Below, one piece after another: positions 6,286-10,622 of a DNA stretch of 35,575 nucleotides. The stretch is taken from contig REEH01000157.1 of NCBI GenBank assembly GCA_007695175.1, positions 1 through 35,575 of the forward strand. The letters are read 5' to 3'. The stretch comes from Spirochaetaceae bacterium (lineage in GTDB: Bacteria; Spirochaetota; Spirochaetia; DSM-27196; Alkalispirochaetaceae). A program made the translations under genes and the position numbers. Under the pieces are notes generated by a model. It was given only the letters and a program-made list of their open reading frames with translations. It searched no databases and was not told the DNA's origin. Within the stretch, counting starts at the first letter, position 1. Each line of letters starts with the position of its first letter.

Positions 6286-7245
6286 CTACCTGCTTTTTAC
6301 CGCGCGTTCCGCCAGGTCCGCCGCGCCGATCACGGTGGCCTCGTCCCCCAGCGCCGCCGCCGAGACGATCACGTCCGCCACCAGCCGACGCATGGCGCGG
6401 CGCCTCATCATCGATTCCGCCGGCTTCAGATACCGGTCACCCAGTTTCTCCACCAGCCCGCCTCCCACGACGATCAGCTCCGGATCAAAGGTATTGACCA
6501 TCGCCGCCATCCCGATCCCGAGAAATCCCGCCGCCTGTTCCACCACCTCCGCAACGCCGGAATCACCGGCGTCCAGGGCACGGGCGATGAGGCCGCTCTT
6601 GATGAGACGAATGTCGGTGGCGCCCGCCTCCGCCAGGACGGGCGATTGACCGTTTGCGGCGAGCAGCACCAGGTCCCGGGCGATGGCGGTACGGGAGGCG
6701 ACCGCCTCGAGACACCCGAAGTTACCGCACCCGCACCGGCGGCCGTCGGGCTGCACGGTGATGTGCCCGATCTCCCCCGCCGCTCCAAGCTTGCCCCGGT
6801 ACAGGACGCCATCCAGTATAAGACCACCGCCGATACCGGTGCCGGGAAAGATACCGATCACATGGCGGTAGCCCCGGGCGGCCCCGGCGACATACTCTCC
6901 CCAGAGGCCCGCGTTGACGTCGTTCTCCAGGAAGACCGGAATACCCAGCTCTCCCTGCAGGTACTCCGCCAGCGAGAAATTGCGCATGTCCAGGTTTGGC
7001 GGCTCCAGAATCATGCCCTTCTCCGCGTTTATCGGGCCTGCCACGGCGACGCCCAGAGCGGTAACGGCCCCGGCGGTTATGTCGGCATCCTGCATGGCGC
7101 CCCGGATCACCTCCGCGATCTGCGCCGCTACCGCCTCGTTGCCGCCGCCGAGGGTGCGGGCTTTCTTTTTTCCCTGGATGTGATTCCGCCCGTCCAGCAC
7201 TACCGCGAGCATCTTGGTACCGCCCAGATCGAATCCGATACGCAT
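6286..7245 (-). CDS. ROK-family sugar kinase (glucokinase-like)
   Basis: A 319-residue ROK kinase. It has the N-terminal phosphate-binding DLGGTK (6-11), the catalytic-base segment LENDVNAG, GTGIGGG, and the zinc site GEIGH...CGCGNFGCLE with all ligands (one His, three Cys). Such proteins phosphorylate glucose, N-acetylmannosamine or similar sugars. It is the first gene of the ROK-ppx-ppk1-barrel operon. That position raises the possibility that it uses polyphosphate, since known polyphosphate glucokinases are ROK proteins. The intact zinc motif and ATP-type loops make ATP equally or more likely. ATG 7245 has AAGGAG 8 bases upstream. Confidence 0.9.
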   Translation of the reverse strand: MRIGFDLGGTKMLAVVLDGRNHIQGKKKARTLGGGNEAVAAQIAEVIRGAMQDADITAGAVTALGVAVAGPINAEKGMILEPPNLDMRNFSLAEYLQGELGIPVFLENDVNAGLWGEYVAGAARGYRHVIGIFPGTGIGGGLILDGVLYRGKLGAAGEIGHITVQPDGRRCGCGNFGCLEAVASRTAIARDLVLLAANGQSPVLAEAGATDIRLIKSGLIARALDAGDSGVAEVVEQAAGFLGIGMAAMVNTFDPELIVVGGGLVEKLGDRYLKPAESMMRRRAMRRLVADVIVSAAALGDEATVIGAADLAERAVKSR

Positions 7246-7276: not shown

Positions 7277-7285
7277 ATTGTACCA
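7277..7285 (-). promoter_or_regulatory. Extended -10 for the ROK-ppx-ppk1 operon
   Basis: On the minus strand TGGTACAAT (an extended -10, TGnTACAAT) gives a leader of about 25 bases containing AAGGAG before ATG 7245. No good -35 is seen. The element sits on the start codon of the divergent adenylyltransferase gene. Confidence 0.5.
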
Positions 7286-8139
7286 TGAACGGCGTCATCC
7301 TCGGGCGTTTTATGCCACCCCACCATGGGCATCTGTATCTGGTCGACTTCGCCAGGGCCATGGTGGATCACCTCTATGTGCTTGTATGCACGCTCGCGGA
7401 GGAACCCATTCCGGGAGAGCTGCGCTTCCAGTGGATGCGGGAGCTGCAGCCGGACTGCACGGTGATCCACATAACCGAGGAGATCCCCGCCGCAAAGCGC
7501 GGTGAGGTGGGAGCAACCACGATATGGGCCGATGCCATAGGGCGCGCCGTTCCCGTTGCGATAGATCGCGTCTTTGCCTCGGAAGAGTACGGATGGGATC
7601 TGGCGTACCGTCTGGAGGCGCAGTACATCCCGGTGGACCCGGGGCGGCACAATATTCCCGTCTCCGCTACGGAGATCCGGGAGAACCCCTTTGAACACTG
7701 GCGCTTTATCCCCGCTCCGGTGCGCCCCTGGTTTGTACGCCATGTGGCGCTCATCGACCAGTCCGGACTGGCGCGAGAGCTGGCGGCGGCCCTGAATACG
7801 GTGGTGGCCCACCCCTACCGGGAGTTCTGGCAGCTCACGTGGAATACCTTCGGGGGACGTCGGGACGCCACCCCGATCCCGCCCGAGGAGATCCGGCGGG
7901 GCGCCCGGGCAACAGTCACCGCCCTGACACGGCGGGCCAACCGTATCCTCCTGCACGATCTGCGGCGCACCGAGGATCTGGACGATCTCGCACCGGAGGC
8001 GCTCCCCGTCGTTATCGTGGCGGACAATCGCCGGCAGGAGGAGCTGGCGCGGTACTACGCGCGGTCCACCTCCCCGCTGATCATCGCGCCGCCCCAGGCG
8101 ACGGCGGAACAGCTGCTGGCGGTCACGGCGTCCCTTTGA
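7285..8139 (+). CDS. NadR-like NMN adenylyltransferase with degenerate ribosylnicotinamide-kinase domain
   Basis: A 284-residue protein. Residues 1-150 are a nucleotidyltransferase of the NadR type: LGRFMPPHHGH contains the HxGH-like catalytic site (13-16), and IPVSATEIRENPFEHWRFIP (125-143) is the second signature. NadR adenylylates NMN to NAD+. In NadR a kinase domain with a GxxxxGKS P-loop follows immediately after FVRxVAILG. Here that point reads FVRHVALIDQSGLARELAAAL (150-170), with no Gly-Lys-Ser. Later kinase-like segments persist (YREFWQLTWNTFGG, ATVTALTRRANRILLHDL). The domain fold therefore seems kept but ATP binding lost. There is no helix-turn-helix domain, so it is not a repressor. 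The stop codon lies inside the -35 of the next gene. Confidence 0.8.
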   Translation: MNGVILGRFMPPHHGHLYLVDFARAMVDHLYVLVCTLAEEPIPGELRFQWMRELQPDCTVIHITEEIPAAKRGEVGATTIWADAIGRAVPVAIDRVFASEEYGWDLAYRLEAQYIPVDPGRHNIPVSATEIRENPFEHWRFIPAPVRPWFVRHVALIDQSGLARELAAALNTVVAHPYREFWQLTWNTFGGRRDATPIPPEEIRRGARATVTALTRRANRILLHDLRRTEDLDDLAPEALPVVIVADNRRQEELARYYARSTSPLIIAPPQATAEQLLAVTASL

Positions 8140-8164
8140 CAGTACGAGCCGGGAGTTCTACATT
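8136..8164 (+). promoter_or_regulatory. Strong sigma70-type promoter of nfeD-SPFH unit, leaderless
   Basis: A consensus TTGACA (8136-8141), a 17-base spacer and TACATT (8159-8164) stand 6 bases before ATG 8171, with no room for a ribosome site. The -35 hexamer includes the TGA stop (8137-8139) of the upstream gene. Confidence 0.75.
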
Positions 8165-8170
8165 GTATCA

Positions 8171-8623
8171 ATGGACGTAGCAGTCTGGGCTGTCATCGGC
8201 GGGGCTCTGCTCCTGGCGGAGTTTGCCATGCCCGAGCTGGTGGTGATCTTCTTTGGCCTGGGAGCGCTCCTCAATGCTTTTCTCCTGGCGCTTATCCCGG
8301 GACTGCGCGGCAATATCCCCCTGCAGATCGTTCTCTGGGGAGCTACCAGCGGGACGGCGCTGGCGCTGCTGCGGCGGTACGCGGCGCGATGGTTCCGGGG
8401 TGAGGGACCGGACACCCAACCGACCGGGGCGGGAGAGACGGCGCAGGTAGTGGAGGCGATAACCCCGGAAAAACCGGGAAGAATCCGCTATCGCGGCACA
8501 ACCTGGCAGGCAACGGCGGTGCGCGAGACGATCCCCGCGGGCCGCATCGTAACGATACTGGAGAAAGAGAACCTGACGTACCTGGTAACAGGGGAGAACC
8601 TCCTGGATAACAACCAGTCCTGA
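8171..8623 (+). CDS. NfeD family membrane protein
   Basis: A 150-residue protein with two or three N-terminal transmembrane segments (VAVWAVIGGALLLAEF, LVVIFFGLGALLNAFLLALI, and a third around IVLWGATSGTALALL). These are followed by a C-terminal OB-fold NfeD domain (GETAQVVEAI...GRIRYRGTTWQATAV...AGRIVTILEKENLTYLV). NfeD proteins pair with SPFH/stomatin proteins encoded next door, probably organising membrane microdomains and protein quality control. It is the short form without the ClpP-like protease domain. It precedes two SPFH genes, as expected. Expression probably begins at the leaderless promoter just upstream. Confidence 0.9.
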   Translation: MDVAVWAVIGGALLLAEFAMPELVVIFFGLGALLNAFLLALIPGLRGNIPLQIVLWGATSGTALALLRRYAARWFRGEGPDTQPTGAGETAQVVEAITPEKPGRIRYRGTTWQATAVRETIPAGRIVTILEKENLTYLVTGENLLDNNQS

Positions 8624-8679
8624 AAAGCGCGGCCCCACCGGAAGAACCTGGTGGAGAGCCATAAACGGGGAGAGTGCCC

Positions 8680-9702
8680 ATGTCCGTAATCGGAGCCTAT
8701 CTGAGTTCGATCATACTTCTGCTGCTGGTCTTCACGATCTTCTTCAAACTGATCCGGATCGTACCGGAACAGCAGGCCTGGGTGGTGGAACAGCTGGGCA
8801 AGTTTCGCCGCATCATCGGGCCGGGGCTGCACCTGGTGATCCCGCTGGTGCAGAAGGTGGCCTACAAGCAGATCCTCAAGGAAGAGGTTATCGACGTGCC
8901 GCCGCAGCTGTGCATCACCCGGGACAACGTGCAGGTGGCGGTGGACGGCATCCTCTATCTGCAGGTAGTGGATCCGGAAAAAGCGAGTTACGGCATAGAC
9001 AACTACCGCTTTGCCACGGCGCAACTTGCGCAGACCACGATGCGATCCGAGGTCGGCAAGATAGACCTGGACAACAGCTTCTCCGAACGGGACCGCATCA
9101 ACGATGCGATCGTACGCAGCGTGGACGAGGCGAGCGATCCCTGGGGGATCAAGGTGACACGCTACGAGATTCGCGATATCACCCCCTCCGAGACGGTCAT
9201 GGTGGCCATGGAGCAGCAGGTCCGGGCGGAACGGGAGAAGCGCGCGGAGATCCTGGCCAGTGAGGGTGTGCGGGAAGCGCGCATCAACAGCTCCAAGGGA
9301 GACCGGCAGCAGTCGATCAACCTGTCCCAGGGAGAGCGGCAGAAACGGATCAACGAGGCGGAGGGGCGCGCCAAAGCGACGGAAATCATCGCCGGTGCCA
9401 CGGCGGACAGCATAGCCCAGGTGGCGGAAGCTATCCGCCTCCCCGCGGGCCGGACCGCCGTATCGGCCCGGATCGCGCAGAACTTTCTCGGCACCCTGGG
9501 TGAAATCCTCCGGCAGAGCGACACTTCCGTCCTGCCGGCGGAACTGGCGCAGCTCTACGGAATTCTGGAGGCGGTCCGGGGCGGAGGCGCCGCCGCACCG
9601 GGCGGGGCAGCTGCGCCAGGCGGCGGTACGGGCGCGCCAGGCGGCGCGGGTACGTCGGGCGCCGCGTCGCGCCGCACAGCCACCACGGGAGGTGACGCAT
9701 GA
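8680..9702 (+). CDS. SPFH/band-7 (stomatin/Qmc-like) protein 1
   Basis: A 340-residue membrane-anchored SPFH protein. One transmembrane segment (about residues 4-26) precedes the band-7 domain, with IVPEQQAWVVEQLGKF, GPGLHLVIPLVQKVAYK, VPPQLCITRDNVQVAVDGILYLQV, AQTTMRSEVGKIDLD and RYEIRDITP. A charged coiled-coil rich in Glu/Arg/Gln follows, then a Gly/Ala/Pro tail (about 30 residues) encoded by GC-rich repeats. The start is ATG 8680, 7 bases after GGGGAGA; the GTG at 8674 abuts that site and is less likely. These proteins form large cage-like oligomers on the inner membrane with NfeD. The stop overlaps the next start by four bases (ATGA). Confidence 0.93.
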   Translation: MSVIGAYLSSIILLLLVFTIFFKLIRIVPEQQAWVVEQLGKFRRIIGPGLHLVIPLVQKVAYKQILKEEVIDVPPQLCITRDNVQVAVDGILYLQVVDPEKASYGIDNYRFATAQLAQTTMRSEVGKIDLDNSFSERDRINDAIVRSVDEASDPWGIKVTRYEIRDITPSETVMVAMEQQVRAEREKRAEILASEGVREARINSSKGDRQQSINLSQGERQKRINEAEGRAKATEIIAGATADSIAQVAEAIRLPAGRTAVSARIAQNFLGTLGEILRQSDTSVLPAELAQLYGILEAVRGGGAAAPGGAAAPGGGTGAPGGAGTSGAASRRTATTGGDA

Positions 9703-10622
9703 ACCCCTTTCTTCCACTTCAAATCGTTCTGAGTATTCTGGGAATCATCGTGGTAGTGGCGATCCTGCGCAGCGTCCGGATCGTACCGGCAAAAACGGTC
9801 CTGGTGGTGGAGCGGCTGGGCAAGTACGCCAAATCGCTCAACGCGGGCTTCCACGTGCTCGTGCCCTTTCTCGACCGCGTGGCGTACTCGCACAACCTGA
9901 AGGAACAGGCCGTGGACGTTCCCACCCAGCCCTGTTTCACCTGGGACAACGTCAAGGTTGACGTGGACGGGGTGCTGTACTACCGCGTGGTCGATCCCAG
10001 GAAAGCGAGCTACGGCATTACGGACTACGAGTACGCCACGATTCAGCTCGCCCAGACGACGATGCGCTCCGTTATCGGCAAGCTGGAACTGGACAAGACC
10101 TTTGAGGAACGGGACACCATCAACGCGGCGATCGTGCGCGACGTGGACGCGGCCGGCGCGGAGTGGGGCGTTCAGGTAACGCGTTACGAGATCCAGAACA
10201 TCAACGTCCCCGCGGAGATTCTGCAGGCCATGGAAGCACAGCTCCGGGCGGAGCGGGAAAAACGAGCCCAGATCGCCCGGTCCCTGGGCGAGATGGAATC
10301 CAAGATCAACTACTCCGTGGGCGAGATGGAGGAATCGGTGAACCGCTCCGAGGGAGAAAAGGAGAAGTGGATCAACGAGGCGGAAGGCAAGGCCTCGGAG
10401 ATCCGCGCCCTGGCAACCGCCACGGCCACCTCCCTGCGCCTCGTGGCGGAAGCGCTCGATGTGGATGGCGGAGAGGATGCGCTTTCCCTTCAACTGGCGG
10501 AGCAGTACGTGGGAGAACTGCGGGAACTCGCCCGGAAGGGCACCCGGGTCGTTCTGCCCCTGGACCTGCACGACGTCAACGGTGTGATCGATTCGGTGCG
10601 GAGGCTGCTGGGCCGGAAGTAA
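9699..10622 (+). CDS. SPFH/band-7 (stomatin/Qmc-like) protein 2
   Basis: A 307-residue paralogue of the preceding protein with the same plan: N-terminal transmembrane segment (LQIVLSILGIIVVVAIL), IVPAKTVLVVERLGKYAKSL, FHVLVPFLDRVAYSHNLKEQ, DNVKVDVDGVLYYRVVDP, TTMRSVIGKLELDKTF and RYEIQNINVP, then an acidic/basic coiled coil. It lacks the Gly/Ala/Pro tail of SPFH 1. It starts at ATG 9699 with GGGAGG about 7 bases upstream and overlaps SPFH 1 by four bases. The two proteins are probably made in fixed ratio and may form a mixed cage (as HflK/HflC do), although both resemble stomatin/Qmc more than HflK/C. The gene ends just before a GC-rich repeat and hairpin. Confidence 0.93.
   Translation: MNPFLPLQIVLSILGIIVVVAILRSVRIVPAKTVLVVERLGKYAKSLNAGFHVLVPFLDRVAYSHNLKEQAVDVPTQPCFTWDNVKVDVDGVLYYRVVDPRKASYGITDYEYATIQLAQTTMRSVIGKLELDKTFEERDTINAAIVRDVDAAGAEWGVQVTRYEIQNINVPAEILQAMEAQLRAEREKRAQIARSLGEMESKINYSVGEMEESVNRSEGEKEKWINEAEGKASEIRALATATATSLRLVAEALDVDGGEDALSLQLAEQYVGELRELARKGTRVVLPLDLHDVNGVIDSVRRLLGRK

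Follow-up and report, generated by a model that had tools for sequence, protein, structure and literature searches.

The closest described relatives of the protein studied here are the bifunctional NadR enzymes, with structures from H. influenzae (1LW7), L. lactis (6GYE/6GZO) and E. coli (8X7F), with which it shares domain order, NMN adenylyltransferase (NMNAT) motifs and overall fold. Unlike these enzymes, it has no P-loop, no lid and no N-terminal helix-turn-helix (HTH), and its ribosylnicotinamide kinase (RNK) domain is shortened and divergent. In the L. lactis NadR, a nucleotide site is located between the two domains and ATP cooperativity extends even to the NMNAT reaction (PMC7221760); an RNK domain could thus plausibly have a role other than catalysis. 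The NMNAT fold is shared by the archaeal-type enzyme of M. thermautotrophicus (1EJ2; Z 15.4 and rmsd 2.2 over 139 aligned residues). The archaeal structures matched, though, have a single domain, whereas our protein retains the remnant of an RNK and, judged by family model, is nearer to NadR. NMNAT-Nudix fusions (NadM-Nudix) likewise combine an NMNAT with another domain connected to NAD turnover, but here the second domain is an RNK relative and not a Nudix domain. A bacterial kinase-fold domain that has similarly lost its Walker motifs is EcpK, for which a scaffold function was proposed (PMC12004946); EcpK, however, is a member of another family, in the lineage of bacterial tyrosine kinases, and its partner functions in polysaccharide export. 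The open literature searched contained no account of a NadR that lacks the P-loop.

The gene is located in a 35,575-nt window (the whole stretch of DNA that was analyzed) from a Spirochaetaceae bacterium of the order DSM-27196, and represents an order-specific NadR variant that we call nadR* (Table 1). Based on its sequence and those of its homologs, we judge it likely that the gene product is a monofunctional enzyme, an NMN adenylyltransferase in which the RNK domain is retained but inactivated and shortened. NAD would probably be made from NMN only, with the dead kinase half acting as a scaffold or regulator.

Table 1. Features of the nadR* locus, with positions numbered from the first nucleotide of the window.
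Feature	Position	Strand	Description
Divergent ROK-family gene	6286..7245	-	Pfam ROK E 2.4e-65; conserved neighbor
nadR*, NMN adenylyltransferase fused to P-loop-less RNK domain	7285..8139	+	284 aa, ATG start, frame open throughout
NMN adenylyltransferase domain	7285..7734	+	Residues 1-150; TIGR01526 / CTP_transf_like match
GRFMPPHHGH nucleotide-binding signature	7303..7332	+	Residues 7-16; kept in 31/31 order members
SATEIRENP motif, ISxTxxR equivalent	7663..7689	+	Residues 127-135; S127, R132, P135 kept in 31/31 order members
Degenerate ribosylnicotinamide-kinase-fold domain	7735..8136	+	Residues 151-284; HHalign and AF2 fold match to NadR
Former P-loop site, VALIDQSG	7744..7767	+	Residues 154-161; canonical phylum proteins e.g. 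ITGAESTGKT
Former Walker B strand, ILLHDL	7945..7962	+	Residues 221-226; canonical FCDTD
nfeD	8171..8623	+	31 nt downstream of nadR*; Pfam NfeD E 6.6e-10; neighbor in most of order
SPFH/Band 7 protein 1	8674..9702	+	Pfam Band_7 E 2.8e-34; conserved neighbor
Second SPFH-like protein	9699..10622	+	About 45-58% identical to first in cross-matches; conserved neighbor

A preliminary description of this DNA had considered the adenylyltransferase half to be intact, and our comparisons bear this out. All of the NMN adenylyltransferase motifs are present, the GxFxPxHxGH and SxxxxR nucleotidyltransferase motifs being shared by the window protein and 31/31 order members, and 19 canonical NadRs of the phylum agree fully at 17 positions of the NMNAT half, 16 of which have the same residue in all 31; at the remaining one, every canonical protein has K (19/19) and every order member R (31/31). 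The N-terminal half matches TIGR00125 above its cut-off. The NadR family model (NCBIfam TIGR01526) also matches the protein (E 2.9e-39, ending at residue 225), with a score of 135 bits that falls below the curated cut-off of 341, as does that of L012, a canonical NadR with an intact P-loop (243.5). A Pfam scan of the ORF showed no N-terminal HTH, and only three open codons precede MNGVILGRF. Residues 7-8 of the NMNAT signature (7303-7308) are GR in 31/31 aligned order members and GK in 19/19 canonical NadRs of the phylum; this swap is a second diagnostic change, and it is in the catalytic half.

The kinase half is divergent. The GxESxGK[ST] of NadR kinases has become ALIDQSGLAREL in the window protein, in which PWFVRHVALI is directly followed by DQSG where canonical homologs have GxESTGK[ST]; several residues are missing from the site, which has retained none of the canonical G, E, G and K. 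The alignment to solved NadR structures extends past the junction of the two domains as far as the P-loop strand, where it sets LIDQSG against the canonical LGGESSGKS. The loss of the P-loop after FVRxVAI had been noted in the preliminary description and is confirmed by alignment, which also revealed losses that had gone unmentioned, namely those of the lid, a Walker B Asp and distal residues. In the Walker B DTD columns the window protein reads DLR/HDL, with one of the two Asp positions lost; both positions vary across the order, and at the second there is an Asp in 20/31 members, the window protein not among them. The lid and distal residues D264, P266, R273 and R279 (canonical numbering) all align to gaps in the window protein, and the lid Arg, R273, is retained in only 1/31 order members. 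When the residues that canonical NadRs of the phylum all share were traced through the order, the P-loop G, E, S, G and K, R273, D264, P266 and R279 were found to be lost or scattered, and the structural residues L171, A172 and T177 (L012 numbering) were kept. The C-terminal domain is also short, at ~132 aa in the window protein versus 167-184 aa in canonical proteins (with one canonical outlier of 219 aa).

That this degenerate domain is nevertheless a relative of the NadR kinase is indicated by both profile and structure comparisons, in agreement with the earlier view that kinase-like segments could still be recognized downstream. HHalign matched the C-terminal domain to canonical NadR with a probability of 98.7% (E 1.6e-16), and the best four PDB matches to its profile were all NadR (best E 0.002). 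The Pfam AAA_28 model, which matches 19/19 canonical proteins, recognizes only 7/31 of the order domains, weakly, and not that of the window. AlphaFold2 models, built from order members only, reached a pLDDT of 93.9 over the full length and 91.9 when the C-terminal domain was modeled by itself. Comparison of predicted structures with NadR, which the preliminary description had proposed, returned NadR as the top match for both: the whole protein matched 1LW7 (Z 21.2, rmsd 4.0, 277/284 residues aligned), and the C-terminal domain matched 6gyf (rmsd 3.8, 127 aligned) with a Z of 9.0, only slightly above other P-loop kinases (Z 8.8 and below).

To determine how widespread the variant is, we surveyed 393 genomes of the phylum and 46 genomes of the order. 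nadR* was present in 35/46 order genomes, and GxxxxGK[ST] was absent from 34/34 readable members, the remaining match (G426) being a fragment. Elsewhere in the phylum, the P-loop was present in 51/52 complete two-domain NadRs sampled, a count that leaves out three NMNAT-only proteins (L033, L091 and L129), two contig run-offs and four unrelated short adenylyltransferases. The exception, L018 (L018:1501-2385), is a P-loop-less NadR relative of the same class from outside the order, and its C-terminal half showed none of the canonical kinase motifs; it is possibly a second, independent P-loop loss. The NMNAT-only NadR relatives are about 150 aa in length and have no C-terminal domain, and another of this type, L004, was found outside the phylum. 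In a maximum-likelihood tree of the NMNAT part alone, the P-loop-less set grouped together with 1-2 state changes, versus 17.9 with shuffled labels, which fits one ancestral loss.

The preliminary description had reasoned that homologs with a clean P-loop at this position would imply a local mutation or sequencing error, and had suggested a search of spirochaete genomes for the same loss. Distant homologs do have a clean P-loop, but it is missing from every readable member of the same order, and the loss is thus a trait of the clade and not an error. The window does come from a 256-contig draft, in which an assembly or sequencing error at the P-loop might be suspected; such an error has practically no likelihood here, as independent genomes of the order carry the same loss. 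No P-loop is hidden in another frame around 7700-8150, which excludes a local frameshift.

Selection on the C-terminal domain was estimated from pairs of order members. In eight pairs its dN/dS was 0.07-0.31, with upper 95% bounds of <=0.51, and that of the NMNAT domain was 0.04-0.18; in a wider, more saturated set of pairs, values reached 0.65 (L005/L036, a more distant, near-saturated pair). The domain is therefore clearly under purifying selection, albeit relaxed: it evolves 2-3 times faster than the NMNAT domain in the order, the median dN(C)/dN(N) being 2.63 versus 1.25 in canonical NadRs. With its fold kept, its ATP-binding motif lost clade-wide and purifying selection acting upon it, the C-terminal domain fits the description of a pseudokinase. 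The earlier suggestion of a kept kinase fold, possibly that of a pseudokinase, is thus supported by profile homology, two structure predictions, the clade survey and the selection tests, and our analysis gave no indication that the domain may have gained a new catalytic activity.

The same data bear on whether the kinase domain is a pure relic, dead baggage that is slowly being eroded while only the NMNAT half matters. Slow erosion also fits the great variation in length of the domain across the order (96-195 aa) together with its faster evolution. The alignment of order members has no invariant C-terminal column, relatives consisting of an NMNAT alone exist, and L018 has a C-terminal region with neither a P-loop nor recognizable canonical motifs. 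Opposed to this are the dN/dS values clearly <1 in all eight pairs, the retention by every complete order member of a C-terminal frame some 100-195 codons long, the confidently predicted fold, and a core of near-invariant residues (L18, T24, A61, A65, L66 and R72, numbered along the C-terminal alignment). The dN/dS values could, in part, reflect the need only for a foldable tail. On balance, we regard a pure relic as unlikely, though deserving of serious attention.

NMN is released within cells by NAD-dependent DNA ligase. We hypothesize that NadR* most likely recycles intracellular NMN, such as that from the ligase, to NAD in one step (NMN + ATP -> NAD + PPi), and that it would do so alongside the deamidating route PncC-NadD-NadE. 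Its C-terminal domain presumably no longer phosphorylates nicotinamide riboside (NR). An ancestor may have given up NR salvage, which would have released the kinase activity from selection while the folded domain stayed. The domain may have been retained because it packs against and stabilizes the NMNAT domain, because it sets the oligomeric state, or because its surface is used for regulation or partner binding. We regard lost kinase activity and a role in NMN recycling as strong inferences. Recycling of NMN by PncC or by NMNAT enzymes has been reviewed (PMC3680494). The PncC and NadR* routes coexist in most order genomes, a point against the hypothesis, as any specific need for NadR* is then presumptive. 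Mutual exclusion of PncC and NadR* was considered, and no such pattern stood out across the order genomes.

The complement of NAD genes was examined in the window genome, in which NadD, NadE, nicotinate phosphoribosyltransferase, CinA/PncC and NadA are present, and neither PnuC nor a credible separate RNK-type kinase was found. AAA_28 matches elsewhere in the genome are short generic P-loops, the one at cut-off being located in HslU, and were rejected as a separate RNK. A NadV-type nicotinamide phosphoribosyltransferase was likewise rejected as a source of NMN, the sole PF04095 match in G000 being the nicotinate phosphoribosyltransferase. Only 1/46 order genomes (G424) had a PnuC above cut-off, and its neighbor there is a second NadR whose P-loop is intact. 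Second NadRs with GGPSTGK[ST] were observed in three genomes (L083, G424:C392; L084, G426:C224; L085, G400:C313), those of G426 and G400 having an NrtR-like Nudix-winged-helix regulator as neighbor. These loci look like separately acquired NR-salvage clusters. The restriction of PnuC to a locus with an intact NadR, together with the second copies in G426 and G400, fits a putative role of the ancestral copy, nadR*, outside NR salvage.

These observations also speak to whether the kinase of NadR* might still be active through a non-canonical ATP site. The Walker B-like Asp that most order members have at the second canonical position could be read in its favor, but the Gly and Lys of the P-loop have disappeared, as have the lid Arg and the remaining distal residues. 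With, in addition, no PnuC found to supply NR and an intact second NadR in some order genomes, we consider activity of this kind very improbable. If NadR* is indeed a monofunctional enzyme, it would be a clean natural case of a metabolic P-loop kinase that became a pseudokinase inside a bifunctional enzyme and was fixed across a bacterial order. It would also offer a direct way to separate from catalysis the other roles of an RNK domain, including those in stability, oligomer formation and the inter-domain nucleotide site. In practice, the annotation "NadR" in these genomes should not be used to predict NR-to-NAD salvage.

The neighborhood of nadR* is specific to the order and absent around the canonical NadR genes of the phylum that were tested. 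nadR* is linked to nfeD in 19 distinct order loci, including that of the window (families f1, f2, f3, f61, f62 and f63), with SPFH genes after nfeD wherever the locus is long enough. In the window, nadR* is divergent from the ROK gene and a Ppx-like gene, and the ROK gene is divergent in most order loci. Neither the nfeD-SPFH nor the ROK neighbors were matched at any of the canonical NadR loci that were tested from outside the order. The C-terminal domain could accordingly be imagined as a regulatory or partner-binding pseudokinase, a docking surface that possibly ties NMN/NAD turnover to the adjoining NfeD-SPFH membrane platform. The binding of nucleotides between the domains of L. lactis NadR (PMC7221760) and the scaffold role proposed for the P-loop-type pseudokinase EcpK (PMC12004946) are compatible with such a surface. 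However, SPFH-NfeD operons are common in general (PMC2636767), so that the nadR*-nfeD link is suggestive only, and neighborhood is not interaction. In addition, a search of some 1 kb of sequence past the gene revealed no nfeD in f60, f4 and some of f62, and G412 has nfeD-SPFH without nadR*, which together rule out nfeD-SPFH as an invariant partner. A regulatory or partner-binding pseudokinase of this kind appears rather unlikely, and it is doubtful that the dead kinase domain is a dedicated module that places the NMN adenylyltransferase at the NfeD-SPFH platform. Were this the case, the spirochaetes of this order would have NMN-to-NAD recycling linked to membrane microdomains. The absence of NadR* from three further genomes (G408, G422 and G428) is uncertain, as their contigs end close upstream of nfeD. 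In the window, the first SPFH protein (8674-9702) was observed to end in a low-complexity tail of Ala-Pro-Gly repeats.
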